Below are positions 1 through 63,813 of a DNA stretch of 64,000 bases, one piece after another. The first letter of the stretch is position 1; the number at the start of each line of letters is the position of its first letter. Under the pieces are notes generated by a model. The model was not told the origin of the DNA and did no database searches. It saw only the letters and a program-made list of their open reading frames with translations. The DNA is from Meandrina meandrites (taxonomy: Eukaryota; Cnidaria; Anthozoa; Scleractinia; Meandrinidae). The stretch lies in assembly GCA_963693305.1 (NCBI GenBank), contig OY855904.1, positions 46,449,315 through 46,513,314 on the forward strand. The letters are read 5' to 3'. Made by a program: the position numbers and the translations under genes.

Positions 1-117
1 TGTTGAGGATGGTTGCCGTGAAGGGGTGGTAACCCAATTGTTCTCTGTAGATTGGAAGGGTCTGCCGTTCTCTGACTACAATGGCTTCCTGATGCTCGCC
101 TTCAAGTGATTGGGCCA
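1..117 (-). CDS. Gene A, TPR exon (partial, continues past window start)
   Basis: This is the start of the 3' TPR exon of STAND gene A, cut by the window edge. On the minus strand a 3' splice site ending CTAG precedes position 117. Read in phase 1 the exon is open and begins VAQSLEGEHQEAIVV, followed by the ERQTLPIYRE and HPFTATILN blocks found in the equivalent exons of genes B (44884 down) and C (61333 down). The two nucleotides completing the split codon match the single G left by the upstream NTPase exon, so the frame is kept. TPR segments of this kind act as protein-protein interaction scaffolds in NLR-like and nephrocystin-3-like proteins. The rest of the exon lies outside the window. 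Confidence 0.8.
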
Positions 118-1437: not shown

Positions 1438-3087
1438 CTGCCATGTCATTGTATGTTGCCGCCAGCATGACGATGTCTTCTTCCCTACGTGTTTGTCGAA
1501 TGTCGATTGCCTGTTGGATCTTGTCTTTCCCTTCACGAAATCTACCTTCTTTTGCGAGACATCGACCAAGTTTGGCGAGACACTGCGCTCGGCTGTTACC
1601 GGTGTTAATGGTAAGATCCAGACTGCTCTGGATTCTGTCGGCCTCTACCAAATATTCCCTGGCTCTTCTAGCGGCTACATCGCACAGGCCCGGTGAACAG
1701 GAACAATGGAACACTTCCTTGATGCCCAAGGAGGTGAGACATTCACTCAACCTCTCTTGATCTCCCATTTCTTCGCATTTTTTTCTTAACGAGGCGAAAA
1801 CAGATTTATATTTCGTCTTTCCAATCATCTTTGCCAGTAGCTCCCCAACGCTGTTGAAGACATCGATGCACCTTGTGATTTGTCCTTCATCCATTTTCCC
1901 ATTTTCACACCACTCAATAAGCTGCATGACATTCTCTTCTTCTTGTTGGAAAGCCGATATTGCGTCTGAGGCCTTCTTGCTTAAGAACGTCCTAAATGTG
2001 TCATTGAGGAAGGCCAAAAAATGGTCAATGAACAGATTGCGGGCATTGGCAAAGACGACAGGAAAACCAGATTCCTTATTTCTGGAGTAGTCGCGAACGA
2101 CTCTGAGAAAAGTATACAAACAATCACCTCCAATGATGTTTTGTTCTAAAAGAGATCGCTTAGCCAGTTCCAACACGCTATTTTTGAGCTGATGTTCGCT
2201 TAACACCGTTGAACGAAATATTTGTACAGCCCCGGACAGAGTAAAGTGCCCTCTTAGCAATGCTAATGTTATGAGGGTGTTCTGTTCTTGTTTATCAAGT
2301 CTGCCAAAGCAAATATCGAGGCACACACCTATCTTTTGCTCCACTGGAACTGTCTGGATCTTTAGTAAGAAGTCGAATTTTTCTTGTGGTGATGGGCTGT
2401 TCATAAGTTCCAAGAGGCCAAGCAAGTCGCGATGCGATAAGGCCAATGTGTAAAGGACGAGGGGAATGCCATCACAAATCTCGGATAGCTGCTTGGCGTG
2501 TTGTTGGTTCACCGCTCTATCTTTCCACGCTATTTGCAAGAGCTGAAGTGATTCTTCTGGTCTAAAGCAAAGAAGATGAATCATTTCTTGGCCTAATTCC
2601 GGGAAAACAACTTTTTCCGATGAGGTGACCAGTAACTTAACTTTTCCTGATATCTTTACGATTTCAGTAATAAGGTTCATCACCTGTGATTTTTGTCCTC
2701 TGTCGCCCAAATGAAGCAAGAATTCGAAGTTGTCGAGTAATAAGATCGTGTAGAAATCTTGACTTTTCAGACGATTTTTTAACTCAGATATCGGGTTCTC
2801 TACAGGGTAATGGTAAACTTGTTGAAGAATCTTTTCCGAAAAATCATCTAGTGAGTTTATGTATCGGCAATTCACGTAGACAACAACGGTGCGACTGTCG
2901 GAATTCAATCTTTCGTTCGCTACCTTGATAGCAGTACTTGTTTTTCCCACACCAGTAACACCATGTACAAGAACGCATCTGCAGCTGTGTTCAGGACAAA
3001 GGTATTTCATAATGTTCTCGCATTCCTGGTCGCGACTGACAAAATGAGAAACTGTCTGGGGAAGTCGGGACAAACCTCTACAGGCTC
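1438..3087 (-). CDS. Gene A, STAND NTPase (NB-ARC/NACHT-like) exon with TPR start
   Basis: This 1,650-bp exon is open throughout (phase 1 in, phase 1 out) and encodes the nucleotide-binding engine of an NLR-like protein. Visible motifs in order are the P-loop GVTGVGKTS, Walker B TILLLDNFEFLL, a sensor-like strand LLVTSSEKVVFP and the GxP block CDGIPLVLYTLAL. A winged-helix-like region follows, with TFLRVVRDY at the position where NB-ARC proteins carry MHD, then a helical TPR-like segment ending at AATYNDMA. STAND NTPases switch by nucleotide exchange and oligomerise in innate immunity or cell-death signalling; that role is inferred from the family. The acceptor is TTTTATAG before 3087 and the donor CAG|GTAAATG after 1438. 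The exon has no ATG at its start, so it is internal. It lacks 11 codons that B and C carry just after Walker B. Confidence 0.9.
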
Positions 3088-3798: not shown

Positions 3799-3852
3799 CT
3801 GCAATAGTTTAATGTATTGGCAACGGCGAAGCAGCACCTGCATGGAGCGGAT
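3799..3852 (-). pseudogene. Gene A, NTPase-proximal mini-exon with in-frame stop
   Basis: This 54-bp mini-exon has an acceptor (TTTGACAG) and a donor (GCAG|GTAAAAA) and is the counterpart of 47463-47516 in gene B and 63760-63813 in gene C. In the phase required by the downstream NTPase exon it reads PLHAGAASPLPIH and then TAA. Genes B and C have CAG GAA where A has CAT TAA, a GG to TT dinucleotide change. Either this exon is skipped (54 bp is a multiple of three, so skipping keeps the frame) or gene A is inactive. Confidence 0.7.
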
Positions 3853-5894: not shown

Positions 5895-6166
5895 GTAAAT
5901 AATAATCATTTTATTCTTTAATTAATCATTTTTATTATTAAATTGCTGGAGGAATTCGAGAACTTTTTGGTAAAACGTTTGAAAAGGCAAAGCATAAAAT
6001 TTTCCCCCAACAAACAACAGCAAGAGAATCTTACGACAATGCCAAAAATGGATTCGTTCATTGACCTCTTTCAACTTGAGAAGATTCAAGTAAAGACAAT
6101 ATAAACCACCATACAAGTCTGAATGACGGCTTAAAGATTTTTAAGGATAAGGGAACAGCCGATTTT

Positions 6167-6670
6167 ATGAAAGAGATAGAAGTCCAAGCACGTGCTCGAA
6201 CGGGACGGAGATGCCCACAAGGACCAGATCTTGGGTTTACGAAACCAACCAGAGACTCTTTGCAAATGCTACACTCTTCATTTGCCAAGATCAAGTCAAT
6301 TTTAGATGACAAGGGTCTTCTTCACATTGCAGAAAATATTGATTTCTCCAGCTTCACAACCTTGCAGGTCGAACATTTCTTTGCCGGCATGAGGACGCCG
6401 AGTAGGCCGACACCAGACATGCACGATTACGCAAGCCGAAGGCCAAACTGCATCACTGAGTCGCTTCAGAAAACCTATCAGTCCTTCTTCGTAGTTTACA
6501 ATGGTCCTCAAAGTCACTATGCTGAAAAGAGAGTTCATGAAAAAGAACCAGAGTGGCTGTATGAACGCTGTAAGTCAAGAACTGTGCACACTCTGGAAGA
6601 GAGGGATGAGACCAGGGAAGAGGCTAAGGAGCTTGGGCTTTTCAACAAAGAGTTTGGCCAAGGAGTGTGA
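6167..6670 (+). CDS. Unrecognised transposon ORF fragment
   Basis: An open segment of 167 codons lies inside the TIR element, downstream of the RS-rich exons. It includes SFTTLQVEHFFAGMRTPSRP and then CITESLQKTYQSFFVVYNGP. The pattern of an aromatic-rich EHFF-GMR motif followed by a tyrosine-rich segment resembles proteins I associate with anthozoan repeats, but I cannot name the domain. It ends at a TGA at 6668-6670, and the next open frame (6680-7192) lies in another frame, so there is either a small intron or a frameshift between them. It is probably the element's own protein. Confidence 0.4.
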   Translation: MKEIEVQARARTGRRCPQGPDLGFTKPTRDSLQMLHSSFAKIKSILDDKGLLHIAENIDFSSFTTLQVEHFFAGMRTPSRPTPDMHDYASRRPNCITESLQKTYQSFFVVYNGPQSHYAEKRVHEKEPEWLYERCKSRTVHTLEERDETREEAKELGLFNKEFGQGV

Positions 6671-6679
6671 CAGCAAAGG

Positions 6680-7192
6680 GTGAGGGGTAAAACCCAAGAA
6701 AGAGCTGGGACACTACCTTTGGCTATTTCCATGATGAAAAGAATCATTGCGCCAGAAACTCGAAATTTAAACGTGCTTGAAGAACTCCAGGGCCTCGAGG
6801 AACAAAGTGGTGATCACCTGGATGCCGGGACGTCAGTGGAAAAGAACAGAGTTGTTTTTTCAAAAGGAGAAGTTGTCGCTCTTAAGCATAACGACAGGAC
6901 GTACCTGGAGCCCTTTTTTCTGGTAATTCTCTGTGAAGATATCCACAGCAGGAATGATTGTTTCCTGGAGGAAAAGCTGAAAATAAATTGGCTGGAGCAA
7001 TCAGAGGAAGATCCCTTAGTCTACAACAAAGGAACCTTTGACGAACAAAATTCACCGAAATGCATCATGGATCGAGTCTCTGTTGATCGGGAAGCTAAAC
7101 ACTTTATTCTAAGAGGAAACGAAGAACGGCGCTTAAGAAATTTGGCTCACGGGCATGTAGACAACGTGTCGACTGTAGGTATTTTTGCTTAA
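6680..7192 (+). CDS. Unrecognised transposon ORF fragment, possible BAH-like module
   Basis: This open segment of about 170 codons follows the previous fragment in a different frame. It contains GEVVALKHNDRTYLEPFFLV, then KINWLEQSEEDPLVY and SVDREAKHFILRGNEERRLR. The order of a beta-rich 'value/regulator' segment followed by a W-L-E core loosely resembles BAH or chromatin-reader-like folds, but I do not assign it. It ends just before an AT-rich stretch. It probably belongs to the same coding unit as 6167-6670. Confidence 0.35.
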   Translation: MRGKTQERAGTLPLAISMMKRIIAPETRNLNVLEELQGLEEQSGDHLDAGTSVEKNRVVFSKGEVVALKHNDRTYLEPFFLVILCEDIHSRNDCFLEEKLKINWLEQSEEDPLVYNKGTFDEQNSPKCIMDRVSVDREAKHFILRGNEERRLRNLAHGHVDNVSTVGIFA

Positions 7193-7940
7193 TCCACAAT
7201 ATTTCAAAAATCAAGCAATAGAACGTTGATCTACATTTGACAGTTTTTTAAAATTAAAGATCCTTTTGCTTTCACGTTCAAAGTGCATTTCGCGTCTTGT
7301 ATATATTTTTTTGCAACATATTTAGATTCAGTCTTTTTATTCACTTTTTACTTGACGTCAACCAACTCGAATCAGGGAGTTTTAATTAAAAAAAAAATGT
7401 CTTTAATCTTGTCAGTTTTATCAAATTGTTTTATGGCGCGTTTTCTAGTGTTCATACGAATCTTAAATTTCTCAACCAAGAAAGATTTTCTTCAAAAGCA
7501 CGCTAATCAAGTAATATGCAATGGACTGAGCATTTTTCACAAGCAAGCAACAGAATTCCAGTTATTCCTCAATACATCATGGAAGAGAACATGACAACTT
7601 GACTCATAATGAGCAAATGAAGATCTACTTGAGGTAAATACACTTTGTTGTTATTAATGAATGATAAATCGACGTCGGGGAAACTTAACTTGATCAAATC
7701 TCTCTACGGGATCAGGGATCAAATATTGCCACATTTTGGGGATCAGGGATCCAAATTTAGGGCTAAAATTTGGGATCAGCGATGAAAAAATATACCTGGT
7801 TACGACCCTGCCATAGCCCCGTTGAGGAATCTTCAATACCACGCTTCCTTCTTTTCGTCTTTTCATTTCTGTATTTCTCATCTTTCTATCCTCTTGCGAA
7901 AGAGGGGTAAAGAAAAGACCTGACACTAAGTCTGAAATAC

Positions 7941-7982
7941 CTGCCAAGGTTTCCTGCATTTGGTGATGAAGTTGCGGCACCT
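7941..7982 (-). pseudogene. Gene A, truncated and frameshifted mini-exon
   Basis: This is the counterpart of gene B mini-exon 47770-47820. The donor side (GGCAG|GTATTT) is intact, but its 5' end is fused to unrelated sequence found upstream of the Q-class mini-exons (the CACCTAAATTAACTC block, also near 9298 and 10108). It also has one extra base in its PIQE region. A recombination between array units is the simplest explanation. Confidence 0.55.
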
Positions 7983-8236: not shown

Positions 8237-8287
8237 CTGTACAGGTTTCTTGTATTGGCGATGAAGCTGCGACACCTGCATGTTGGT
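8237..8287 (-). CDS. Gene A mini-exon, H class
   Basis: This 51-bp phase 1-1 exon has acceptor TTTTGCAG and donor ACAG|GTATTT. It encodes QHAGVAASSPIQETCT between split codons. It is the first member of the regular array on the NTPase side. Confidence 0.7.
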
Positions 8288-8577
8288 CTGCAAAAAAAAG
8301 TAAAAAAAAAACACGCGTAAATATAACTATGTCATGAAGCTGTTTTGTCGTTTTAACTAGAGTAACCTTTTACTTTCCCGTCATTCTCAACTTCTGTCAT
8401 ATTCCAATTCTCTTCTCCTCTTTCCATTCTTCTTTTCTTTTTTACTCCTATTCACCTATTTTCCCATCCTTTTATCTTCCCATCTAACTGTTCTTCAACG
8501 TCAATTTCCCCTTTTGAGGGCTTGGGACGACGATCGCAATAACCTGAGAACGAGATTAACAAAATAGTTCGAGATAC

Positions 8578-8628
8578 CTGCACTACTTCCCTGTGGTGAC
8601 GATAAAGCTTCAGCACCCACTTGTTGAT
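8578..8628 (-). CDS. Gene A mini-exon, Q class
   Basis: This 51-bp phase 1-1 exon has acceptor ATTGCCAG and donor GCAG|GTATCT. It encodes QQVGAEALSSPQGSSA between split codons. It differs from the H class at its start (QQVG against QHAG) and in having no PIQE. Confidence 0.7.
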
Positions 8629-9006
8629 CTGGCAATGGAAGTGAAACACTCTTTAACATGATTGAATGACGAACTCGTGAGGACGTTTTGTCCTTAATAT
8701 CCTACCATCCTTTAGCTTACGTGCAGCCCTCTCCCATTTCCTCGTTCCCATTTTCTTTCTGCATGAGGAAATAGGAGACGGTTGCACACAGACTTGCATG
8801 TCTTCCGACATCCATTGTCCCCTCCTGCAATCTACCCATCCCCTTATTGTCAATGCAAATTGCCATTCCCATGCATCTATCTTTACATCATTCCATTTTC
8901 GAATCTTATCATCATACCGTTGTCCAGATTTAACAAGGTGAGAATTGGAAACACCTCCCTCGGAAAAAGACCCTGAAACCGACTTTGATATATAAATTTA
9001 AAATAC

Positions 9007-9057
9007 CTGCACAAGATTCCAGTATTGGTGGTGAAGCTAGGGCACCTGCATATTGAT
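9007..9057 (-). CDS. Gene A mini-exon, H class
   Basis: This 51-bp phase 1-1 exon has acceptor TTTTTTGACAG and donor GCAG|GTATTT. It encodes QYAGALASPPILESCA between split codons and lies about 770 bp from the previous H-class exon. Confidence 0.7.
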
Positions 9058-9380
9058 CTGTCAAAAAAGTACAAAAAACACCCTTAAATATAATTTATCA
9101 TGTCATGAAGCTGTTTTGTCGTTTTAACTAGAGTTTCATTTACTTTCCCATCATTCTCAAATTCTCTCATACTTCCAATTCTTTTCTCCCGCTGACCTTT
9201 CATCCTGCCATTCTCACTTCCTTCTATACTCCTATCCACTATTTTCCAATCATTCTATCTTCCCATCTAACCGTTCTCCAATTTTAATTCCCCTCCTTCA
9301 CCTAAATTAACTCTTTCTGCGGAAGGGTTGACGATCGACAATAACCTGAGAATGAGATCGATAAAAAACTTTCGAAATAC

Positions 9381-9431
9381 CTGCACTAGTTTCCTGGTGT
9401 GGCAATAAAGCTGCTTCACCCACTTGTTGAT
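9381..9431 (-). CDS. Gene A mini-exon, Q class
   Basis: This 51-bp phase 1-1 exon has acceptor TCGCCAG and donor GCAG|GTATTT. It encodes QQVGEAALLPHQETSA between split codons and lies 803 bp from the previous Q-class exon. Confidence 0.7.
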
Positions 9432-9806
9432 CTGGCGATAAACGTGAAACACTCTTTTAAACATGATTTAATGATGAAGTCGTGAAGACGTTTGTCCTTT
9501 ATATCCTATTATCCTTTAGCCTACATGCAGCCTTCTCCCATTTCCGCACGCCCATTTTCTTTCTGCGTGAGTAAAAAAGAGACGGCTGCACGCAGGTTAA
9601 CATGTCTTCCGTTCATCCATTGTTCCATCCTGCCATCTACCCGTTCCCCTATTCTAAAATTGTCATTCCCATGCTTCTTTGTTTAAATCATTCTATTTTC
9701 AAATCTTCTCGTCATGCCGTTGTCCAGATTTAACAAGATAAGAACTGAAAACACATCTCTCAGAAAAAGACCCTGAAACTGTGTTTGATATTAACGTATA
9801 AAATAC

Positions 9807-9857
9807 CTGCACAAGATTCCTGTATTGGTGATGAAGCTACGGCACCTGCATGTTGCT
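9807..9857 (-). CDS. Gene A mini-exon, H class
   Basis: This 51-bp phase 1-1 exon has acceptor TTTTTTGACAG and donor GCAG|GTATTT. It encodes QHAGAVASSPIQESCA between split codons. Its first split codon gives Glu rather than Asp. Confidence 0.7.
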
Positions 9858-10185
9858 CTGTCAAAAAAGTACAAATTAAAAGCATTCGTTAATATAACTT
9901 ACTAAGTCATGAAGCTGTTTTATCTTTTTAACTAGAGTATCATTTACTTTGCCTGTCATTCTCAAGTTCTCTCATATTTCAATTCTCTTCTCCCTCTATC
10001 CTTTCATCCTGCCATTCTTCTTTTCTTCTATACTCCTATCCACCTATTTTATCATTTTTATATGTTCCCATCTAACTGTTCCTCAATGTCAATTTCCCCC
10101 TTTCACCTAAATTAATTCTTTTACGAGAAGGGTTGACGATCGACAATAACCTGAGAATGAGATTGATAAAAATAGGTCGAGATAC

Positions 10186-10236
10186 CTGCACTTGGTCCCG
10201 GTGGTGGCGATGAAGCTTCGGCATCCACTTGTTGAT
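10186..10236 (-). CDS. Gene A mini-exon, Q class
   Basis: This 51-bp phase 1-1 exon has acceptor ATTGCCAG and donor GCAG|GTATCT. It encodes QQVDAEASSPPPGPSA between split codons and lies 805 bp from the previous Q-class exon. Confidence 0.7.
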
Positions 10237-10595
10237 CTGGCAATGAAAGTGAGACACTCTTAAACATGATTGAATGAAGAAGTCGTGAAGACGTTTGTCC
10301 TTAATATCCTACCATCCTTTAGCCTACATGCAGCCGTCAGCCGTCTCGCATTTCCTTTCTTCGTGAGGAAATAGGAGACGGCTGCACGCAGTCTAGCATG
10401 TCTTCCGTCCATCCATTGTTCCATCCATCCACCCATTTCCCTATTTTCAAATTGTCATTCCCCACTTCTTTGTATCATTCCATTTTCGAATCTTCTCATC
10501 ATACCAGATTGGCCAGATTTAAGAAGATAAGAATTGAAAACACCTCTATCAGAAAAAGACCCTGAAAGTGAGTTTGATAAAGAAGTTTAATATAC

Positions 10596-10646
10596 CTGCA
10601 CTAGATTTTTCTATTGGAGACGAAGCTGGAGCACCTCTGTGTTGAT
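10596..10646 (-). CDS. Gene A mini-exon, H class (divergent)
   Basis: This 51-bp phase 1-1 exon has acceptor TTTTGACAG and donor GCAG|GTATAT. It encodes QHRGAPASSPIEKSSA between split codons. It is the intact array member nearest the first exon. Confidence 0.65.
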
Positions 10647-10849
10647 CTGTCAAAAGTACAAGAAACATGTGTAAATGGAAATGACACTGATTAAGTCCTG
10701 AGGACGTTTGTCCTTCCAATGATGTACCATTCCCCAGTCATTCTCTGTTGTGACTCTGTTCTCCGCTCCTACCCCCATGCTCCTACCTACTCATCTTTCC
10801 GTCTTCCCATCTACCCATTCTTTAAAACCACTTTCATGGAATACACTCT

Positions 10850-10907
10850 CTCAGAGGAAGTATTGAAGAATGAGTGGGTGATGAAGCAATGGCACCCCCA
10901 CGTTCAT
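10850..10907 (-). pseudogene. Gene A degenerate mini-exon without donor
   Basis: The acceptor TTTGACAG before 10907 and a body reading ERGGAIASSPT match the H class, but no GT donor follows at the expected distance and the frame soon reaches TGA. It is most likely a decayed array member. Confidence 0.4.
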
Positions 10908-11593
10908 CTGTCAAAGAACGCGAAACACTTGTAAATAGGTCGTAAACGTAAATAAATCTATCGTCACTGGTGACATTAGGTCAGTAATGGAACATTCACT
11001 CATCTTGCCATCCTCTCATTTTTCAGACCTCTCAGCTCAACCTTCTGTCCTAACACTTTTCTCTTACATGCTCCCAGAACTTTCACTCCCCCATCATCCC
11101 CTACTTCCATCCTCGCACCCCTCCGTTCTTTATCCTTACAGTTTCCTATTCGCCAATTCTCCCATCTACCCATCCCCGGTCTTGTCATCCTCCTGTTTCT
11201 CCATCACCTCGTCTACCAATCTTCCGATCCTCCTGTCTTCCGATAATCTCGACCGTCCATTCTCTGCCCATTTACCCAAAACAACTCCCTTGGGAGATTG
11301 GGAGAGGGGGGGGGGATAAAAAGTGATGCTGTAGCTACAGGTTGACTGAGGACTGCAGATACTCTGAGTGACGTAACTTTTAGCAGACAATAGTTACATT
11401 GGGGCAGGGGATGTAAATACCTACCGGTCTCTTTCTTACAGAACGTTAACACGGAAAGAGGTCAGTCTTTGATAGTTGATAGATAAGCTCTAGAGAGAGA
11501 TGGAGCCGTTTAATTCAGAAGAATGTAAAATAACTGACATTCGACTGTAGCAAACAAACAAATGGTACTGGGAGAAAAGTAAATTTAAAATAC

Positions 11594-11651
11594 CTCCTTG
11601 TCCTGCAAGAATAGGAATAGGCTGGCTACTAGCTCTCTCGTTTTCAGCCAT
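11594..11651 (-). CDS. Gene A first coding exon
   Basis: An ATG at 11651 opens a 58-bp coding segment, MAENERASSQPIPILAGQG, ending in phase 1 at the donor GGAG|GTATTT. Gene B has an equivalent exon at 48083-48026 with 12 identical opening and scattered residues and the same upstream 5' UTR sequence (GAAGACC before the ATG). The phase matches every mini-exon and the NTPase exon. The end of the exon (PIPILAGQG) resembles the SSPIQETLAG part of the mini-exon repeats, so the repeat may have grown from it. Confidence 0.7.
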
Positions 11652-17942: not shown

Positions 17943-18095
17943 TTACTTTTTGCGTAAGAAGGACTCCAAATCAAGGACAAAGATAAACTCGTCCCCAGGC
18001 CTAATCCGTGCGTACTTACGGACGCGGGCGACTACCAAATTTTCTCGGCTTGATGGATTTACCAAATAGACAATATTCGTATTCCCCGACGGTCC
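17943..18095 (-). CDS. Possible terminal exon, opposite to the THAP gene
   Basis: The minus strand reads, after a CCCAG acceptor-like site near 18,096, PSGNTNIVYLVNPSSREN and then ARIRPGDEFIFVLDLESFL before TAA. The composition looks like a real protein C-terminus and not a chance frame. It could be the last exon of a second gene of the transposon on the opposite strand. No homologue is recognised, so this is tentative. Confidence 0.3.
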   Translation of the reverse strand, partial: GPSGNTNIVYLVNPSSRENLVVARVRKYARIRPGDEFIFVLDLESFLRKK

Positions 18096-18198
18096 TGGGA
18101 CGAGTAGTCCCTTGAGCATGAATGCGAGGCTAATACGGAGAAAAGTTAAAGAGACGTGCAGTGTTTGTGTTGGGATTTCTTCGACTTTGCGTGAAAAA

Positions 18199-19103
18199 AT
18201 GCCCAAACATCACTGTTGTGCGTACAACTGTACCAACAGCGAGGCAAAGAAAAAAGACCCAGTCAGATATCCCGAAGTTTCAAATGTTTCTTTCCACTGT
18301 TTCCCATCAAATGACGAAAACAAACTGTACGCTCCTGGAATGAGTGAGAAGGAAAGACGTCGAAGGTGGATCGCAGGATGCCGCCTTGAGAGTCTAAATG
18401 TCACAAGGCATACTCGTGTATGCTCCCAACACTTTGAAGGAGGCTAAGGGCCCACAAAGGCAAACCCTGTTCCTTCGATCTTTGATTTCCCTAAGCATCT
18501 TCAGCCGAAAGAAGTAAAACAGCGCCAGGATCCGGAGTCCAGACGCTTGAAGAATGCTTCGACATGTACAACAACCAGAATGCAGAAAGAAAGGAAATCA
18601 GGCCATGGCAAATCGAAGGTTAGAAAATCTCTCGATTTCGATATTTTAGAACCGCAAGAACATCATTTGGAACATGATAAAAGTATCATAGGCGAGGAAA
18701 TCGGTAATCAGGATTTGTTCCTTGTGGCGCCAGAGTTACATCACAATGATACTTTGATCGGTGATCAGCATTTGCTGCTCGAAATATCTGTGCATGAATT
18801 CAACATGAGTCCTACGAACATCAAAGACGATGTCTTATATCATGATCAAGCTGTCCAGACAGAATTAACAGCAGATCAAATCACTAGAATGGAACAGTCG
18901 CACTTTAAATTACACGAACAGCGACATGAATTAAAAAGAGACTTGTTCCTGGAAGATGTGCAAGAAATGATAGCTCAGTGAAGTTTTACACTGGATTGCC
19001 GTCACTCTCGTGTCTGCTTATGTTATTTGAATTTCTTAAGCCAATTGCAAATTGCATGAAGTACTGGGATGGAAAGAACAAGACACGAGCAGAAACATAT
19101 CAG
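18199..19103 (+). pseudogene. THAP-domain transposase, exon 1 (broken)
   Basis: ATG at 18199 begins MPKHHCCAYNCTNS, a THAP zinc finger (C2-CH) with the conserved W in RRRWIAGC and the CxxH in RVCSQHF. THAP fingers bind specific DNA, here presumably the transposon ends. A TAA at 18445-18447 interrupts the domain before its conserved proline (FDFPKH follows in the same frame). A second lesion near 18,965-18,980 shifts the frame by one before the block KFYTGLPSLSCLL. The exon ends at a donor (CAG|GTAAAG) at 19103. Middle residues are acidic and low in conserved motifs. It is a dead copy unless the stop is an assembly error. Confidence 0.75.
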
Positions 19104-19442
19104 GTAAAGCTGTAGTAATTAATAATCTTCATTGCTCTTAAAAGGTTTTATGAAAAAATCCAATTATAACTATTTATTTTGCTTAGGAAAGGACTATTAT
19201 TTTTTTTTGGAGGAGAAGGGGGCATTGAAAAAAAAATTAATGGTCCAAAGAACTTGTGTAAGCAAAGTGGGAGTCACAAGCATAATATATTTAAAAAATA
19301 ATAATATTTTTTCCCTGCTTTACACCACTAAACTGCCTGTTCCCTAGGCTAGGCTGCACTGTATCGCACTGTATAGCATATGCTTGCTTATCATTAACAA
19401 TAAGGCAGTTTACTAAGAACTGAACATTGACATCATTTACAG

Positions 19443-19740
19443 GAAAATTATGTGCCAAAACTGCCAAAAGTACAGAAACGCAATATGAGAAAATTAGAAA
19501 AAGTAATGTGTGAAGTTCTGATTTATCTTTGTTTGCTTCTAAAGGAGAACACTGACAAGGGTAAGCCTGGCCCCAAGAGGCAGCTTCCTTTATTTGCTGA
19601 GTTTGTCATGGTGATGGTTCGCCTTCGATTGGGTTTGCTGCAGAGACAAATTGCAGACATATTTGGCATTTCCCAGTCATCGGTTTCAAAGATTTTTACA
19701 ACATGGATAACCATGTTATATCATGTGTTCAAACAACTAG
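19443..19740 (+). pseudogene. THAP transposase exon 2, HTH_Tnp_4-like, truncated before DDE
   Basis: After an acceptor (TTTACAG) and in phase with exon 1, this exon reads ENYVPKLPKVQ, then GKPGPKRQLPLFAEFV and VRLRLGLLQRQIADIFGIS plus QSSVSKIFTTWI, a helix-turn-helix of the type preceding the DDE_Tnp_4 nuclease. The nuclease should follow but is missing. Homology stops near 19,740, where a GC-rich hairpin and unrelated sequence begin. Confidence 0.75.
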
Positions 19741-19759
19741 TATTTAGCTATGGATGCTC

Positions 19760-19790
19760 CTCCCGCGGGTGCCTTCGGCGCCCGCGGGAG
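19760..19790. repeat. GC-rich hairpin
   Basis: CTCCCGCGGGTGCC and GGCGCCCGCGGGAG are inverted with a 3-bp loop and one mismatch. It sits exactly where the transposase frame loses similarity. It stands out against AT-rich surroundings. Confidence 0.8.
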
Positions 19791-20144
19791 CTCCGCTATT
19801 AAGAGTTAATAATTTGCTACTCGCGAAGAGTAACGATATAACATTTTCGGCTTCGGCATCTTGCAAAAATTCAAAATGGCGGACCAGTTCATTCTCAGAT
19901 ATAAACGGTACTATCGTATTATTTAGCTCGATAAATTGAAAGGAACGTTTTTATTTACACTTTCATTGAGTAAGAAGGTTTTAATTCTTTGCATAACCGA
20001 ATTTTTTTTAAAGTGGAACGATCCGACTATGTCATGGAACAAAGTAACCATATCGTGGAACGAAGTGACTTTTTTGTGGAACGAAATAACTTTTCTTTGG
20101 AACGAAATGATTTGGAACCATCTGACCATAGAACGAAATGACCG

Positions 20145-26282: not shown

Positions 26283-28023
26283 TCCCTAAATGTAATAAAG
26301 GTCCTAAGTGTAATAACTTTTGGTCCTAAATGTAATGAAGTTCCCAAGTGTAATAACTTTTGGTCCTAAATGTAATAAAGGTCCTAACTGTAATAACTTT
26401 TGGTCCTAAATGTAATAAAGGTCCTAAGTGTAATAACTTTTGGTCCTAAATGTAATGAAGTTCCCAAGTGTAATAACTTTTGGTCCTAAATGTAATAAAG
26501 GTCCTAAGTGTAATAACTTTTGGTCCTAAATGTAATAAAGGTCCTAAGTGTAATACCTTTTGGTCCTAAATGTAATGAAGTTCCTAAGTGTAATAACTTT
26601 TGGTCCTAAATGCAATAAAGGTCCTAAGTGTAATACCTTTTGGTCCTAAATGCAATAAAGGTCCTAAGTGTAATACCTTTTGGTCCTAAATGTAATAAAG
26701 GTCCTAAGTGTAATACCTTTTGGTCCTAAATGCAATAAAGGTCCTAAGTGTAATAACTATTGGTCCAAAATGTAATAAAGGTCCTAAGTGTAATACCTTT
26801 TGGTCCTAAATGTAATAAAGGTCCTAAGTGTAATACCTTTTGGTCCTAAATGCAATAAAGGTCCTAAGTGTAATAACTTTTGGTCCTAAATGCAATAAAG
26901 GTCCTAAGTGTAATAACTTTTGGTCCTAAATGTAATAAAGGTCCCAAGTGTAATAACTTTTGGTCCTAAATGCAATAAAGGTCCTAAGTGTAATACCTTC
27001 TGGTCCTAAATGTAATAAAGGTCCTAAGTGTAATAACTTTTGGTCCTAAATGCAATAAAGGTCCTAACTGTAATAACTTTTGGTCCTAAATGCAATAAAG
27101 GTCCTAAGTGTAATAACTTTTGGTCCTAAATGTAATAAAGGTCCTAAGTGTAATAACTTTTGGTCCTAAATGCAATAAAGGTCCTAAGTGTAATAACGTT
27201 TGGTCCTAAATGCAATAAAGGTCCTAAGTGTAATAACTTTTGGTCCTAAATGTAATAAAGGTCCTAAGTGTAATAACTTTTAATCCTAAATGTAATAAAG
27301 GTCCTAAGTGTAATACCTTTTGGTCCTAAATGTAATAAAGGTCCTAAGTGTAATAACTTTTGGTCCTAAATGTAATAAAGGTCCAAAGTGTAATAACTTT
27401 TGGTCCTAAATGTAATAAAGGTCCTAAGTGTAATAACTTTTGGTCCTAAATGCAATAAAGGTCCTAAGTGTAATAACTTTTGGTCCTAAATGTAATAAAG
27501 GTCCTAAGTGTAATAACTTTTGGTCCTAAATGTAATAAAGGTCCTAAGTGTAATAACTTTTGGTCCTAAATGCAATAAAGGTCCTAAGTGTAATAACGTT
27601 TGGTCCTAAATGCAATAAAGGTCCTAAGTGTAATAACTTTTGGTCCTAAATGCAGTAAAGGTCCTAAGTGTAATACCTTTTGGTCCTAAATAAAATAAAG
27701 GTCCTAAGTGTAATAACTTTTGGTCCTAAATGCAATAAAGGTCCTAAGTGTAATACCTGTTGGTCCTAAATGCAATAAAGGTCCTAAGTGTAATAACGTT
27801 TGGTCCTAAATGTAATAAAGGTCCAAAGTGTAATAACTTTTGGTCCTAAATGTAATAAAGGTCCCAAGTGTAATAACTTTTGGTCCTAAATGTAATAAAG
27901 GTCCTAAGTGTAATAACTGTTGGTCCTAAATGTAATAAAGGTCCCAAGTGTAATAACTTTTGGTCCTAAATGTAATAAAGGTCCTAACTGTAATAACTTT
28001 TAGTCCTCAATGTAATAAGGTTC
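26283..28023. repeat. 40-bp minisatellite, left arm (~43 units)
   Basis: The unit is two diverged halves, GGTCCTAAGTGTAATAACTT plus TT, then GGTCCTAAATGTAATAAA. Variants recur (TGCAATAAAG, ACCTTT, GTTCCCAAG), and some two-unit combinations recur in order, suggesting growth in multi-unit steps. Confidence 0.95.
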
Positions 28024-29385: not shown

Positions 29386-30376
29386 GTTACACTTAGGACC
29401 TTTATTACATTTAGGACCAAAAGGTATTACACTTAGGACCTTCATTACATTTAGGACCAAAAGGTATTACACTTAGGACCTTTATTACATTTAGGACCAA
29501 AAGTTATTACACTTGGGACCTTTATTACATTTAGGACCAAAAGTTATTACACTTAGGACCTTTATTACATTTAGGACCAAAAGGTATTACACTTAGGACC
29601 TTTATTCCATTTAGGACCAAAAGTTATTACACTTGGGACCTTTATTACATTTAGGACAAAAAGTTATTACACTTAGGACCTTTATTGCATTTAGGACCAA
29701 AAGTTATTACACTTAGGACCTTTATTACATTTAGGACCAAAAGTTATTACACTTAGGACCTTTATTGCATTTAGGACCAACAGTTATTACACTTGGGACC
29801 TTTATTACATTTAGGACCAAACGTTATTACACTTAGGACCTTTATTACATTTAGGACCAAAAGTTATTACACTTAGGACCTTTATTGCATTTAGGACCAA
29901 AAGTTATTACACTTAGGACCTTTATTACATTTAGGACCAAAAGTTATTACACTTAGGACCTTTATTACATTTAGGACCAAAAGTTATTACACTTAGGACC
30001 TTTATTACATTTAGGACCAAAAGTTATTACACTTAGGACCTTTATTACATTTAGGACCAAAAGTTATTACACTTAGGACCTTTATTACATTTAGGACCAA
30101 AGGTTATTACACTTAGGACCTTTATTACATTTAGGACCAAAAGTTATTACACTGAGGACCTTTATTACATTTAGGACCAATAGTTATTACACTTGAGACC
30201 TTTATTACATTTAGGACCAAAAGTTATTACACTTAGGACCTTTATTACATTTAGGACCAAAAGTTATTACACTTAGGACCTTTATTACATTTAGGACCAA
30301 AAGTTATTAAACTTAGGACCTTTATTACATTTAGGACCAACAGTTATTACACTTAGGACCTTTATTACATTTAGGG
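29386..30376. repeat. 40-bp minisatellite, right arm, inverted (~25 units)
   Basis: This is the reverse complement of the left-arm unit (TTATTACACTTAGGACC alternating with TTATTACATTTAGGACC). It is shorter than the left arm by about 18 units. Confidence 0.95.
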
Positions 30377-35332: not shown

Positions 35333-35434
35333 AGTGAGACGACAATCGAGAAAATACGCCGTCCGGTTTCGAATGTGAGCTGTGCAGAGTTGTGTTACGT
35401 GATTCAAAGCTGTCAAGAACTGTGAATTGCCGAA

Positions 35435-36925
35435 ATGAGTGTCAGGAGAGATGAAACCCCGCGGCTATTTACGTCCAATGAATCGACTTCATCATCAAGG
35501 TCAAGCAAGGTTTTCATTCTAAGAAAGAAAATGGAAGCCGATAAGTTAGCGCTGGAGGTGAAATTAGCGGAGCAAAAGTTTGCTGATGAAATCGAGTGTT
35601 TACGCGCCGAACAACAACAGCGTGCAAAGATTCTGGAGCTCAAAAAGAAAGCCGAGGAATTACGACTGGAATATGAGTTCGAAGATGCTATCGCACAGGA
35701 AGAAGGTATGTCGAATAACAATGATGTTGATAAGGAGTTGAATGAATTACCTGTTGATGATATGAGTGACCCGGTCTCACGCTTAGACAAGAACACTGCT
35801 GAAAATGATGTTGTCGATAAACCTCCTATCGAGCCAAGTTACTTTACCAAACCTGAACTAGTGAAAGATGAATTAAGTGAGCCTCGTAAAGATGAGAAAA
35901 GTGAGTTTGGTCGAGCTGATTCGAAAACGAGTGCTAACCCGAGCGTACAGGCGTCGAACATTGATAAGTTATTGGAAAAAATGCTACCAGCCTTTGTCAA
36001 AATAGTGAAACCAAGCGTGCAGAAATTCAATAGGAATCCATTAGAGTTTTCAAAATTTAAGGCGGCGTTTAAGGTGGAGGTTGATAGTAAGGAGGTTTAC
36101 GATGCAACGAAGAAGCTTAAATTTTTGTTAGATTCTGTGGAAGGTAGTGCAAAATCCTGTCTTGCAAAATTCATGCCAGGTTCAGATAGATATGAGGTGG
36201 CGTGGACTGCGCTCGAAGAGCGTTTTGGCCGTGTGGATACGGTTGTGTCAGCCGCTAAGAAGCGCATAGATCAATTTCCAGTCATAGTCAAAGGAAATAG
36301 CGGGCAGATCAGGCAGTATCAAGAAGTGGTTTCTGAGCTGATAGGTGTTTTCAAGGAACATAAGTTTGTTCACGAACTTAACTCACAAATCCCTGAAGAA
36401 TGTGTCGCGAAACTCCCGGTACGCCTTTGCGGTAGATGGGCTGAATTTGTTGAAGGAAAGCCAAAATTATCGACCTGGAGTTCGTTTGCAAGTTGGCTGG
36501 AAAAAGAGGCAAAAATCTCTGAGTCCAAACAGCGGTGGCTAACAGAAAAGAGAGAGTGGAAACGTCCTGACCCATTTAAAGGTGACAGGCGTAAGACCCC
36601 TGACAAACCCACACCTGGGTTGTTTGCAGGAGCTACAGGAGAGTCTCTACGCACCAGGAATGGAACAAAGTGCCCAGTTCATCAGTCGACTAATCACGTG
36701 TTACAAGAGTGCAAAAAGTTTGAGGGAATTTCGACAAGCGAGAAGGAGAAAGTTGTGGAGGAGAACAGACTTTGTTTGCGTTGCCTATTACCTGGTCATC
36801 GTCTGAGCAAATGCTATAGTAAAAATAAATGCAATGTTCGCAACTGTGATATGCGCCATCACACCCTTGTACATGAAGTTGACTTGAAATTTATTGAGCG
36901 TGCGAAAGCAAAACGTGAATCATAG
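35435..36925 (+). CDS. BEL/Pao gag protein (DUF1759-like, zinc knuckle)
   Basis: ATG at 35435 opens 496 codons. Residues about 25-90 form a charged coiled coil. A DUF1759-type capsid region follows (FNRNPLEFSKFKAAFK, LDSVEGSAKSCLAKF, WTALEERFGR). Near the C-terminus lie cysteine/histidine clusters (CPVHQSTNHVLQEC, then CLRCLLPGHRLSKC, a CCHC knuckle) for nucleic-acid binding. The frame ends at TAG 36923-36925, and the pol reading continues in the same frame immediately after. Confidence 0.9.
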   Translation: MSVRRDETPRLFTSNESTSSSRSSKVFILRKKMEADKLALEVKLAEQKFADEIECLRAEQQQRAKILELKKKAEELRLEYEFEDAIAQEEGMSNNNDVDKELNELPVDDMSDPVSRLDKNTAENDVVDKPPIEPSYFTKPELVKDELSEPRKDEKSEFGRADSKTSANPSVQASNIDKLLEKMLPAFVKIVKPSVQKFNRNPLEFSKFKAAFKVEVDSKEVYDATKKLKFLLDSVEGSAKSCLAKFMPGSDRYEVAWTALEERFGRVDTVVSAAKKRIDQFPVIVKGNSGQIRQYQEVVSELIGVFKEHKFVHELNSQIPEECVAKLPVRLCGRWAEFVEGKPKLSTWSSFASWLEKEAKISESKQRWLTEKREWKRPDPFKGDRRKTPDKPTPGLFAGATGESLRTRNGTKCPVHQSTNHVLQECKKFEGISTSEKEKVVEENRLCLRCLLPGHRLSKCYSKNKCNVRNCDMRHHTLVHEVDLKFIERAKAKRES

Positions 36926-38587
36926 AGAGCATCAGAGGTTGAGAGAGACAACGTGCCTACCTCGCAGGAGAACATAAGCTCACCATCAAATCAGGCTGTG
37001 GAACCGCAAGAGCAGCAGCAGCATCAATCAGTGTACTCAGGTCATGAGACTGATGGTCGTGCATTAGTTGAAGTCTTTCCTGTAGTTGTCTTTGAAGAAA
37101 CAGGGAAACAACAAGTGATGGTGTTGCGTGACTCAGGCTGTAACACAACACTCATGGATGAAAGTTTGGCGCTGGTGCTAGGGCTTCAGGGCAAGGAGGC
37201 AGATCTTGAAATACAAGGAGTTAATGCCCAGAAAGTGTTTACTTCCCAGCACATCAAGAAATGCAGTGTTGCACGAGTCGATGAAGAGAACATTAAGTAT
37301 TCATTACGAGACGTGAAAACGATTCCTAACCTGAATGGTCCGGATCAGAAGTTGAAGTGGTCAACAATAAAGCACAAGTATCAACACCTAAAGGACTTGG
37401 ACTTGCATGATACAGACACAGATCCAGTGCAGCTGATAATTGGAACAAACAATTCTGACTTAATTCTACCAAAACAGATTGTGAAACCCTCAGGTGAATC
37501 GGAAGTTGAAAGAGTACCTTATGCAGTTGAGACCCTACTCGGATGGGCGGTCACTAACTGGTTACCGGGTGAACACAGAGTATCATCACCCTACAGTGGG
37601 TTCAATGTTTATGAAAGAAGTTCAGTTGATGACGAAGAGTTGAAGCAGCTTGTCATGGCCCAGTCAGAGATAGAAGGTTTAGGCGTGGTGAAGGTAGCAA
37701 ATCCGACCCGTTCGATCGAGGATAAGCGGGCACTCTCACTGATGGAGCGGACAACCTTTAAGAAGGAGGGTGAAGATGCGTATATGTCAGGCCTACTTTG
37801 GCGAGAAGAGAATTCATCGCTTCCCAACAACTATGACGTGGCGAAAAGGAGGCTACAGTCCCTGGAGAGGAAGTTCGAGAATAACCCTGAGATCAAAGAG
37901 AGATATGCGAAGTCGATTGAGGATGACATTGAGAAGGGCTATGTAAAGAAACTGAGTAAAGATGAAGTGCAGTGTGAAAGCAGTGTGGTTTGGTACTTAA
38001 CTCACAGATTTGTCATCAATCCTAAGAAACCTGATCGTCTCAGAAGAGTGTATGATGCATCGGCGAAATTCATGGGGCAAAGTCTGAATGACAAAATCTA
38101 CACAGGATCAGATCTCCTGTCCTCTCTGTTTGGAGTCTTCCTCAGGTTCTGCGAAGGGAGAATTGCTATGGCTGCAGATGTGAAAGAAATGTATCATATG
38201 CTTCACCTACCTGACAGTGATAAGCCAGCGGTGAGATTCTTGTGGAGGGAGTCATTAGAAGAAGAACCGAGCGTGTATCAGTTTGAGAGAACAGTGTTCG
38301 GAGAGGTGTCTGCACCATCCAGAGCTAACTACACCATGAGGCGTAATGCGGATGAGAATGGTGCTGATTTACACCTTGGTGTCAGAGCAGTCTACAGGCA
38401 CTTTTACATGGATGATGGTTTGCCATCTACCAATTCTCGAGAGGAAGCTATTGAAATGCGGGAGCAGATGACAGAGTTACTACGCCGTGGAGGTTTCCGC
38501 CTACACAAATGGCTTACGAATGACCCAGAAGTCTTAGCCAAAAATCCCCGAACAAGACAGGTCTCCGCGTTTTCTAGAGCTGAGTAA
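36926..38587 (+). pseudogene. BEL/Pao pol, protease and reverse transcriptase part
   Basis: This stays in the same frame as gag after the TAG and is open to a TAA at 38585-38587. The aspartic protease shows LRDSGCNTTLMDE (DSG triad). The reverse transcriptase shows the first catalytic Asp in MAADVKEMYHMLHL and the YMDD box in HFYMDDGLPS. The TAA is reached after a one-base change in the T-run near 38,570; the homologous sequence continues in the next frame at 38588. Copying of the element RNA into DNA would be its role. In this copy it is interrupted. Confidence 0.85.
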
Positions 38588-38901
38588 AGATAGGCTGCCA
38601 ACAGACAGAACGTTGGGCATCACTTGGGATTCTCAGAAAGATGTGCTAAGGTTTACTGGGCTCAGTGGTGATCCAGGAACAACCAAGAGGAAGATCTTGA
38701 GCCAAGCATTCGCAGTGTGGGACCCACGAGGACTCCTCCTCCCTTTTTCAGTCAGAAGTAAAATCATCCTCCAGAATATGAACCGCATGAAGTACGGGTG
38801 GGATGACGAGCTGAAAGAATGTGATCTTCGAGAGTGGCGTGAATGGCACAAGGAAGCAAAGGAACTGGACGAAGTAAAGATTCCGAGAGCTCTCCTCATA
38901 T
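38588..38901 (+). pseudogene. BEL/Pao pol, region after RT, shifted frame
   Basis: The plus-one frame reads LPTDRTLGITWDSQKDVL and then FAVWDPRGLLLPFSVRSK, typical of the BEL/Pao segment after the RT. Similarity ends near 38,900 at a GGGGGGAGGGC run. Confidence 0.8.
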
Positions 38902-39966
38902 TTTGGGGGGAGGGCCGTATGCCCTCCCCCCCCCCCCAAAAAAAAAAAAATATATAACAACACGCAATAACATACGTATTAAGGCGTTTTTTGCAACGTT
39001 CGTTTACAGCATATTTTAGTTATTATTCACTTCCATGGGCAGTTGTAGCTAGGCACGCGAATTGCTATATATGCTGTTCTTTGCTAGTTGTATTCATTCC
39101 CTGAAGAAGTCTCAGTTAGAGACGAAACGGGTCGGAAATAAACGACAAGCTTACAACTACAAGAAGTCTTTCCTTGTGCTGCTCACTGGTCTTCGTTAAA
39201 AAATTAAAAAAAAGTTTCTCTGACTTCTATGCAAACTATTTTTTTAATACATATGATGTTTGCAAACAATTTATTTTGTCTTTTTAGGCCCTGCAAACAA
39301 TTTTTTTCAATATTTTTCATCCCCCCCCCCCCCCCCCTCCAGAAAAATAATGGTCCGTCCCTAAGCGTACCGGCCGGTCCCGCCAACGAATAGTTGACTG
39401 CAAATTATTCATACGCGAGTACAGACTTTCGTCGTAGACTTTCAATACTGATTATTTAAGTCAATAAATTTTCTATCTTTTTAAAACTCTGAGGCGATTC
39501 TACTTATTTAAACTGTGCATGCTGTGCCAAGGTCAACAATTCGTGTTGTGTTGCGATACTGCGTGTCGATTACGGATTAGGGCTCTCTTGGTCTCTCTTT
39601 GAGTTTAAAATGCTCAGGCAAATTTCGTGATAATCTTTTCCCACGTATGTACATACAGACATATATAAACATGCAGTACTTGAATTCTCCTATAATAAGT
39701 TATTACGTTGAAATTCTACGAAAATTATTTACTCGCCGTCAAGATCTACTCCTATTATTCCACTTCAGAACGATTACCAATATCCTGGTTTTACGTCACT
39801 AGTCCCAGTTTCCACTTCACTCGGTCGTGAGTAGAAAAATCTCAACTTTAAAAATTCGCAAAAAATAGCGATTTTAACCAAATCAAAAAATTTTTGCGGC
39901 ATTTTACTCAGTACAATGCAAAGATTTAATCCGGCCAAAAAATGTTTTTGGGGTTATAGGCACTTT
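38902..39966. mobile_element. Foreign ~1-kb segment replacing part of pol
   Basis: The segment begins with a palindrome (GGGGGGAGGGC then GCCCTCCCCCC), contains C/G runs (about 39,319-39,337) and AT-rich stretches, and ends where integrase similarity resumes. It carries, near 39,100-39,150, CCTGAAGAAGTCTC / GAGACGAAACG, a stem-loop motif common at the 3' ends of Penelope-like and LINE-type retroelements. The RNase H and integrase zinc-binding regions expected here are absent, so this is a replacement and not just an insertion. Confidence 0.6.
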
Positions 39967-40572
39967 AAGGTGTATGGTTGTTTGTTCACTTGCTTGAGTA
40001 CGAGAGCGTGTCACCTGGAATTGGTCGATGATCTTTCAACAGATCACTTCATTATGGCATTAAAGAAATTCATTGCACGGCGTGGAAGACCGCAGAATAT
40101 CTACAGTGATAATGGCTCGAACTTTGTTGGGGCTGATAATGAACTGCGGAAGTGTATTAAGCAACTAGATGAGAAAAGAGTACAAAACGTTTGTGCGCCT
40201 AAGGAAATTGAATGGAGCTTTCAGCTGCCAAATGCTCCACACTTTGGGGGTGCATGGGAGAGATTGGTGCAGTGCACAAAGAAGATGCTGAAAGCAATAC
40301 TGGCAAACAGGATCGTTTCCAAAGAAGTACTTAGAACTGCACTCGTCGAGGCAGAAGGGATACTGAACAGCCGACCGATTACTCATGTGTCCAACGATGC
40401 AGGAGACATTGAAGCACTGACGCCAAATCACTTCCTGCTGATGCGGGCGAATCCGAGTTATGAAGATGCTGATGTCAGTGATAGAGAGATCAACTCGACA
40501 AAGCTGTGGCGACAGTCCCACTGGCCAACTTCTTCTGGAGACGTTTCACAAAGGAGTACCTTCCTAGCCTGA
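39967..40572 (+). pseudogene. BEL/Pao integrase core
   Basis: The open frame is KVYGCLFTCLSTRACHLELV, then IYSDNGSNFVGADNEL and FGGAWERLVQ, a retroviral-type integrase core. The second Asp is in SDNGSNF and the Glu probably in GAWERL. It ends at a stop caused by a frame change near 40,510, where the correct frame moves to the next entry. Confidence 0.85.
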
Positions 40573-44525: not shown

Positions 44526-44884
44526 TTACCGTTGAAGATCCTTGATGTTGTCATCTAACACCTTCTTCTGCATCTGCATTGACTTTTCAAAGCAATCTCT
44601 CGCTTGCCGGAATTCTTCTCTTTCTTTGTGCACCATTCCAAGATCAAACAGTGATTTGGCCGTGTCACGATGATCCTTCAGCAAATCAAGCCGCATCCTC
44701 AACGCTTCCTCAGAATATCGTTTAGCGTTGTCATATTCACCCAGGGCGTAATAGTTGTTCGACAGGTTGTTGAGAATGGTTGCGGTGAAGGGGTGGTTGC
44801 CCAGTTTTTCTCTGTAGATTGGAAGGGTCTGTTGTTCTCTGACCTCTATGGCTTGTCGATGTTTTTGATCAAGCGAGAGGGCGA
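44526..44884 (-). CDS. Gene B, TPR exon
   Basis: The exon follows a TTTTTCCAG acceptor and joins the NTPase exon in phase 1. It encodes TPR-type helices: VALSLDQKHRQAIEV, NHPFTATILNNLSNNYYALG, YDNAKRYSEEALRMRLDLL and ARDCFEKSMQMQKKVL. It ends DLQR and then TAA. The same bases form a possible donor (ACG|GTAAAT at 44530), so the protein may either stop here or continue into further TPR exons. In gene C the matching site is a stronger GTAAGT. TPR arrays of this kind usually serve as protein-binding scaffolds or sensor regions. Confidence 0.85.
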
Positions 44885-47462: not shown

Positions 47463-47516
47463 CTGGGATAGTTTCCTGTATTGGTGACCAGGCAGCGGCA
47501 CCTGCATGGAACAGAT
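47463..47516 (-). CDS. Gene B, mini-exon 2 (NTPase-proximal)
   Basis: This 54-bp phase 1-1 exon has acceptor TTTAACAG and donor CCAG|GTAACT. It encodes LFHAGAAAWSPIQETIP between split codons. Its frame is open, unlike the gene A counterpart. Confidence 0.75.
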
Positions 47517-47769: not shown

Positions 47770-47820
47770 CTGCCAAAGTTTCCTGTATTGGTGATGAAGC
47801 TGCGGCATCTACATGTTGAT
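47770..47820 (-). CDS. Gene B, mini-exon 1
   Basis: This 51-bp phase 1-1 exon has acceptor GACAG and donor GCAG|GTATTA. It encodes QHVDAAASSPIQETLA between split codons. It is the single-copy counterpart of the gene A array. Confidence 0.75.
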
Positions 47821-48025: not shown

Positions 48026-48083
48026 CTCTTTGTCCTGCAGGAATTGAAATAGGCTGGGGACAAACTCTCTCGTTTTCAGCCAT
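48026..48083 (-). CDS. Gene B, first coding exon
   Basis: ATG at 48083 begins MAENERVCPQPISIPAGQR and ends in phase 1 at AGAG|GTATTT. It matches the gene A first exon in start, length, phase and 5' flank. No signal peptide or membrane segment is seen, so a cytosolic protein is expected. Confidence 0.75.
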
Positions 48084-63759: not shown

Positions 63760-63813
63760 CTGCAATAGTTTCCTGTATTGACAAGGACGCAGTAGCACCT
63801 GCATGGGACGGAT
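63760..63813 (-). CDS. Gene C, NTPase-proximal mini-exon
   Basis: This 54-bp phase 1-1 exon has acceptor TTTGACAG and donor GCAG|GTAACT. It is open and encodes PSHAGATASLSIQETIA between split codons. The first exon and any further mini-exons lie beyond the window. A C-run (about 63,917-63,930) and CT-rich sequence follow at the edge. Confidence 0.75.

Follow-up and report, generated by a model that had tools for sequence, protein, structure and literature searches.

A mini-exon array ahead of a coral NLR-like STAND gene encodes peptides with a putative TRAF-docking motif

We analyzed a 64,000-nucleotide stretch of the genome of the stony coral Meandrina meandrites (GCA_963693305.1, contig OY855904.1, positions 46,449,315 to 46,513,314), hereafter the window, which holds three paralogous NLR-like STAND genes on its minus strand. 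What the window shows of gene 1 is the 5′ portion of an NLR-like STAND gene (NB-ARC + TPR) of a scleractinian coral, with an array of seven 51-bp mini-exons between its first coding exon and its nucleoside triphosphatase (NTPase) exon; genes 2 and 3 are its paralogues in the window. At the sequence level, the unit peptides (PIQET here; PVQET, PTQES and SIQET in other corals) match the Px(Q/E)E motif of CD40 and MAVS. Our best reading, at just under even odds, is that the array encodes a disordered cassette-exon tail that may recruit TRAF-type adaptors to a STAND receptor. We computed the exon anatomy, the duplication origin of the array, the STAND fold, the predicted disorder of a homologous tail and the motif enrichment in homologues; what is new is the match of the unit peptide to the TRAF1/2/3/5 motif and its enrichment in the N-termini of coral homologues.

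The first coding exon of gene 1 (MAENERASSQPIPILAGQG plus 1 nucleotide, 58 nucleotides in all) starts with ATG and ends in phase 1 at 11594-11651 on the minus strand, and the NTPase exon (NB-ARC / STAND; Pfam NB-ARC E = 1.5e-12), in phase 1 at both ends, lies at 1438-3087 on the same strand. Between them, also on the minus strand, are four B-type mini-exons, namely 1 (DQHRGAPASSPIEKSSA, 10596-10646), 3 (EQHAGAVASSPIQESCA, 9807-9857), 5 (DQYAGALASPPILESCA, 9007-9057) and 7 (DQHAGVAASSPIQETCT, 8237-8287), alternating with three of A type, namely 2 (DQQVDAEASSPPPGPSA, 10186-10236), 4 (DQQVGEAALLPHQETSA, 9381-9431) and 6 (DQQVGAEALSSPQGSSA, 8578-8628). An initial annotation of this stretch had described all seven as intact, exactly 51 bp long, open, flanked by AG/GT and in phase 1-1, and had placed them between an ATG exon and an NTPase exon of matching phase; we confirmed all of these features. 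Spliced together, the ATG exon, the seven mini-exons and the NTPase exon give a model of 688 amino acids with no stop. The symmetry of the 51-bp units allows any number of them to be included, and all 128 of the 128 possible subsets stay open, which bears out the earlier claim that any combination is safe for the frame. The exon anatomy thus supports symmetric cassette exons ahead of a STAND (NB-ARC + TPR) gene. The ATG exon and its adjoining flanks are 84% identical to those of the gene 2 paralogue (129 columns), and a “PIPI”-like box in this exon is common to some Oculina, Montipora and Acropora N-termini. Inside the gene 1 intron, at 6080-7192 on the plus strand, two adjoining open reading frames (ORFs) of 196 and 173 amino acids without a Pfam match are possibly a piece of a mobile element.

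Bare AG-N51-GT segments are common, with 201 per strand in the window and 96 on the minus strand that are open in the array phase, 13 of them inside the array interval; we therefore dropped AG-51-GT alone as proof of exons. A strict scan of both strands of the window, demanding a CAG acceptor and a CAG/GT donor, returned eight 51-bp segments on the minus strand, these being the seven array exons and the single 51-bp mini-exon of gene 2 (DQHVDAAASSPIQETLA, 47770-47820, minus strand, also found by the profile described below), and none on the plus strand. At 20 other lengths from 30 to 90 bp, the same scan gave 0-5 segments per strand. When we inspected lengths of 30, 39, 48 and 54 bp individually, the segments at 30 bp (4), 39 bp (5) and 54 bp (2) proved to belong to this exon family, either whole or as pieces, and the two 48-bp segments were unrelated to it. 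This was the random-frame control for which the initial annotation had called: loose open units are common (96 on the minus strand), and strict units (8) belong to the family only. A profile built from the seven exons gave the gene 2 exon, on which it had not been trained, a score of 83.5, within the training range of 82.4-98.2; the highest score in one shuffled window was -9.7.

The published binding motif for TRAF1/2/3/5 is given as Px(Q/E)E#, with P-V-Q-E-T-L as its CD40 version (PMC6125299), and PVQET at residues 143-147 of MAVS is reported to bind TRAF2, TRAF3 and TRAF5 (PMC5699845). In gene 1, a strict Px(Q/E)E(T/S) motif is present in mini-exons 7 (PIQET), 3 (PIQES) and 4 (PHQET); it is degenerate in mini-exons 1 (PIEKS), 5 (PILES) and 6, and mini-exon 2 is without it. 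Both mini-exons of gene 2 carry PIQET, in the context PIQETL in the 51-bp exon, and SIQET, from the one unit of gene 3, falls outside the strict motif and within the looser [PSAT]x[QE]E form. Similar words occur in homologues: PVQET twice in Acropora palmata (P0153), SIQET and PIEET in Montipora (P0094) and SVQET twice in Oculina (P0127). No sequence in the PDB matched a query of 36 residues of gene 2 mini-exon peptide.

To calculate enrichment of the motif, we took homologues of at least 640 amino acids with a recognisable NTPase exon, of which 44 had at least 15 amino acids upstream; after keeping at most the last 150 amino acids, cutting P0003 to two repeats and removing near-duplicates, 41 N-termini were left. 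PxQE[TS] occurred 13 times in 8 of these 41 N-termini (shuffle mean 0.19, maximum 2 in 1000 shuffles) and was absent from the protein bodies (0 per 29,124 amino acids). The wider form [PSA]xQE[TS] had 22 occurrences spread over 15 of the 41 N-termini (0.63 in shuffles) and 2 in bodies. When every named entry was counted, 6/12 robust and 14/35 complex coral N-termini contained [PSAT]x[QE]E[TS]. The two clades are reported to have separated 245 million years ago or earlier (PMC5730576).

The tail that these units form appears not to be a folded domain. Pfam (E 0.001) recognized no domain in the 167-amino-acid N-terminal tail of gene 1, nor before the NTPase domain in the homologues P0003, P0127 and P0153; in particular, a CARD, DED, DEATH or TIR effector domain was not found by Pfam in any of these N-termini. 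An AlphaFold2 model of P0003, built from 53 aligned sequences, had a predicted local distance difference test score (pLDDT) below 50 and no secondary structure over the repeat tail (residues 1-302), and the remainder was mostly confident. A solenoid fold for the repeats was accordingly rejected. Foldseek with P0003 gave 6mfv, a STAND protein with TPR, as top PDB match, followed by Apaf-1, with plant NLRs lower. Taken together, the disordered P0003 tail, the lack of a Pfam domain and the STAND fold suggest a flexible tail attached to an ATPase of the oligomerising type.

P0003, an Orbicella protein annotated as isoform X3, contains 17 identical copies of a 17-amino-acid unit (DQHTGATASSPTQESCA) of the same family, and Oculina P0002 contains one 17-amino-acid unit of the gene 1 family. 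A homology search with P0003 residues 1-340 returned P0003 and two proteins covering only 11% of it, and no further arrays. In A. palmata, annotated isoforms X5 (P0153) and X4 (P0158) of LOC141860362 differ only near the N-terminus, at residues 74-110 of X5, where each has its own combination of blocks within the array region. The block ANLRLSTEEENP is preceded by D in one of these isoforms and by N in the other, as would follow if a codon were split after its first base and joined to different upstream exons. We set aside a second pair as splice evidence, isoforms X4 and X14 of Acropora digitifera LOC107354065 (P0143 and P0147), since their bodies differ. These models have in common an 857-residue N-terminal part ahead of two different NTPase-TPR bodies, and one of them ends in what appears to be the N-terminal array of the gene that follows; the fusion is either read-through or an annotation error. 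The shared part has Pfam accessions of glycosyltransferase type.

The array itself grew by tandem duplications of about 800 bp that took in two mini-exons apiece: larger repeats recur within it every 770-805 bp, each spanning one A-type and one B-type exon. Every one of the seven gene 1 units has a match in the lone 51-bp exon of gene 2. The proposal that unit number varies holds between related genes, with 1 unit in gene 2, 7 in gene 1 and 17 in the Orbicella protein. Uncorrected intron divergence among gene 1 units averages 0.178, as compared with a synonymous divergence (dS) of 0.31-0.43 between the paralogous NTPase exons, so that the array appears to have expanded after the genes were duplicated.

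A second kind of symmetric mini-exon, 54 bp long and detected with the profile on the minus strand, is present in all three genes of the window: in gene 1 at 3799-3852 (DPLHAGAASPLPIH*TIA), in gene 2 at 47463-47516 (DLFHAGAAAWSPIQETIP, with PIQET) and in gene 3 at 63760-63813 (DPSHAGATASLSIQETIA, with SIQET). The gene 1 copy and its flanks are 81% identical to gene 2 (198 columns) and 85% to gene 3 (115 columns). It has an in-frame stop, so a full-length gene 1 protein needs it to be skipped, which its symmetry permits. The initial annotation had found the 51-bp array and overlooked this 54-bp exon, the two paralogues and the TRAF-type motif. Two relic copies, again on the minus strand, flank the seven-exon array, one on each side. 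The relic at 10857-10907 (51 bp, profile score 14.7) has kept its acceptor and lost its donor; the one at about 7928 (7900-7982), identified by alignment, has kept its 3′ part with the donor, is missing its 5′ part and acceptor, and is 88% identical over 84 columns to the gene 2 exon at 47770 and its downstream intron.

How such a tail might work can be outlined as follows. The N-terminal effector part of the receptor would be a disordered tail encoded by phase-1 mini-exons rather than a folded domain, and the ancestral mini-exon would have encoded a CD40/MAVS-like docking peptide, Px(Q/E)E(T/S). Oligomerisation of the NB-ARC core would gather the tails, and the clustered tails could then recruit trimeric TRAF-type adaptors, each PxQET-type unit docking a TRAF trimer. 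Exon number and exon choice would set valency and avidity, and decayed units may serve as spacers. TRAF binding, signalling and its tuning are what we infer from the motif and the exon anatomy. The partner family does exist in corals, as three TRAF3 homologues are reported from S. pistillata and one from A. digitifera (PMC5730576). A more specific proposal, possible if doubtful, is that in a class of coral NLR-like receptors splicing sets the signalling output: each mini-exon would encode one TRAF-docking peptide or a decayed, non-binding version, so that a single gene could produce receptors differing stepwise in TRAF valency, and inclusion of the stop-containing exon would yield a docking-peptide decoy, some 150 residues long and free of the receptor.

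Several observations weigh against a TRAF-recruiting tail. The strict motif is kept in only 3/7 gene 1 units, and the looser motif is absent from 6/12 robust and 21/35 complex N-termini, some of which are very short or truncated models and others long. The enrichment is inflated by shared ancestry. We had considered that the motif residues might be the best-conserved positions inside gene 1; instead, they were conserved at 0.42 vs 0.54 for the rest, and 80% of four-position sets equalled them. When one unit was taken from each of four genes, motif positions were conserved only weakly more than the rest, at 0.88 vs 0.63, with 19% of sets as good. Likewise, QET came out as the top word common to both clades only when we counted the window's three genes and used hand-picked lists that left out P0034, P0142, P0147, P0149 and P0160, and we rejected that result; in the full lists without window genes, S.PI, I.ET, PIP and P.QE were ahead, and QET occurred in 2/12 robust and 12/35 complex entries. 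Inclusion of the 54-bp exon after the seven would end the gene 1 protein at residue 153. The support for alternative inclusion of array exons, found in the Acropora homologue, comes from annotation models. Finally, the pooled ratio of nonsynonymous to synonymous divergence (dN/dS) of the mini-exons, with the gene 2 exon included, is 1.01, which suggests that their residues drift almost neutrally.

These points suit an alternative that we regard as rather unlikely, namely that the exons are real and spliced while the tail is merely a disordered spacer with no specific partner in gene 1, its copy number drifting by unequal crossing-over and selection acting only against breakage of the frame. 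It accounts for the pooled dN/dS, for the loss of the motif in 4/7 gene 1 units at positions that are not specially conserved, and for a mini-exon divergence of 0.209 vs 0.178 in introns, with a nonsynonymous to synonymous ratio of 65:26 (from non-independent pairs) near the neutral expectation of 0.67:0.28. Frame, splice dinucleotides and length are nevertheless retained in 7/7 exons despite 18% intron divergence, for which a star-tree neutral simulation that starts from the consensus and omits the two relic copies gave P = 0.0007; with the two relics counted, P = 0.012. The NTPase exon has a dN/dS of 0.24 and 0.26 between gene 1 and its two paralogues and of 0.27 between genes 2 and 3; set against 1.01 for the mini-exons, this suggests a constrained receptor body and a mostly unconstrained array peptide. 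Against a spacer without a partner stand the enrichment of the motif in homologue N-termini, its presence in both coral clades and the retention of PIQET in both gene 2 mini-exons.

It is improbable that the 5′ end of gene 1 is decaying, with the array a dead remnant and the gene silent or starting elsewhere. The in-frame stop and the two relics would fit such decay, as would the many homologue entries that begin at or near the NTPase exon, though these may be single-exon ORF calls. However, the NTPase exon of gene 1 is intact and, at a dN/dS of 0.24-0.26, unrelaxed relative to genes 2 and 3, the seven exons have kept their splice sites, length and frame (P 0.0007 to 0.012), and the ATG exon with its adjoining flanks has the 84% identity to gene 2 noted above. 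We give slightly less credence to the array as a diversifying surface that recognizes, or acts as bait for, proteins of pathogens or symbionts. The A-type exons (2, 4 and 6) are the fastest, with a pooled dN/dS of 1.63 (just 51 codon comparisons and no significance test) and more divergence at second than at third positions, but the tail is predicted to be disordered in the homologue P0003 and the motif words recur across species. That the units are chance open AG-GT segments in a repetitive intron is very improbable and largely refuted, for although such segments are common on the minus strand (96), the strict scan returned only family members (8 in 64 kb, with 0 on the plus strand) and Oculina and Orbicella proteins hold the same kind of 17-amino-acid unit.

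Dscam-type arrays are also tandem exon duplicates in an immune-linked gene, but their exons are mutually exclusive and encode pieces of folded domains, whereas those of gene 1 are symmetric cassettes for a disordered tail and any number is usable. To our knowledge, the TRAF motifs of MAVS do not lie on a cassette-exon array, and we know of no exon array in CD40. Coral NOD-like receptors with NB-ARC + TPR were reportedly described by Hamada et al. in 2013. Those in PMC10236652 are alike in their NB-ARC core, TPR C-terminus, tandem copies and origin in stony corals; that account, in the sections available, describes domain combinations and truncated N-termini and mentions neither a mini-exon array nor a docking motif. 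MAVS resembles gene 1 in bearing three TRAF motifs, PVQET among them, on an immune molecule (PMC5699845), and differs in being an adaptor rather than a STAND receptor. The CD40 tail has PVQETL where gene 2 has PIQETL, the same motif class (PMC6125299), but belongs to a membrane receptor of the TNFR family. Vertebrate NLRC3 is an NLR with (P/S/A/T)x(Q/E)E TRAF-binding motifs, which are described as lying inside its NACHT domain and not, as in gene 1, on an N-terminal exon array (PMC8105094). Among the matches listed for TRAF motifs, NLRs, corals, splicing and exon duplication in the open-licence PMC literature, no title or opening of an abstract mentioned such an array, and to that extent the initial statement that no STAND family with one has been described goes uncontradicted.

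The remaining parts of the three genes fit the STAND class. The P-loop GVTGVGKT is visible in the NTPase translations, Pfam finds NB-ARC in 3/3 genes, and the C-terminal TPR sensor is recognized by Pfam in exons of genes 2 and 3, with the start of a TPR in gene 1, whose TPR exon is cut by the window end (1-117, minus strand; 39 amino acids aligned by tblastn with the TPR exon of gene 2 at 74% identity). Gene 2, on the minus strand, comprises an ATG exon (MAENERVCPQPISIPAGQR, 48026-48083), an NTPase exon (45311-46993; Pfam NB-ARC E = 8.9e-11) and a TPR exon (44529-44884, ends approximate, from the tblastn span; TPR_12 E = 7e-19), and its spliced model is stop-free at 615 amino acids. Gene 3, on the same strand, has an NTPase exon (61674-63356; NB-ARC E = 1.8e-9, AAA_16 E = 1.2e-10) and a TPR exon (61011-61333, ends approximate; TPR_12 E = 8.5e-21, tblastn 91% to gene 2); its ATG exon was not found in the window by tblastn and so probably lies beyond the window end. 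Judged by its best protein matches, the window looks like stony-coral DNA, the named ones coming from Oculina, Orbicella, Pocillopora, Stylophora, Desmophyllum, Montipora and Acropora. The NTPase exon of gene 2 had no DNA relatives in a set of viral contigs, and an Rfam scan at the gathering threshold gave no match.

Elsewhere in the window, two arrays of a 40-bp satellite at 26285-28018 (43 copies) and 29387-30375 (25 copies) lie about 1.4 kb apart in opposite orientation and look like a long inverted satellite pair; a TGTAA repeat follows the second at 30485. Three successive ORFs at 35426-40572 on the plus strand, with DUF1759 above the Pfam cut-off and reverse transcriptase and integrase just below theirs, are presumably a BEL/Pao-like retroelement. 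Neighbouring ORFs at 18070-19802 on the plus strand, with a THAP domain and a DDE-endonuclease HTH, we take to be DNA transposon remains.

Coral genomes are reported to hold large NLR families, many of whose members lack a detected N-terminal domain or are truncated in their annotation (PMC10236652). Such undetected N-terminal domains leave the signalling route of coral NLRs open, and mini-exons, which gene predictors easily drop, may hold part of the answer in the form of short TRAF-type docking peptides that are amplified and possibly chosen by splicing. If a tail of this kind does recruit TRAF-type adaptors, cnidarian NLRs would have a direct link to the TRAF branch on which CD40 and MAVS rely, and exon number would be a simple, testable means to vary receptor output.

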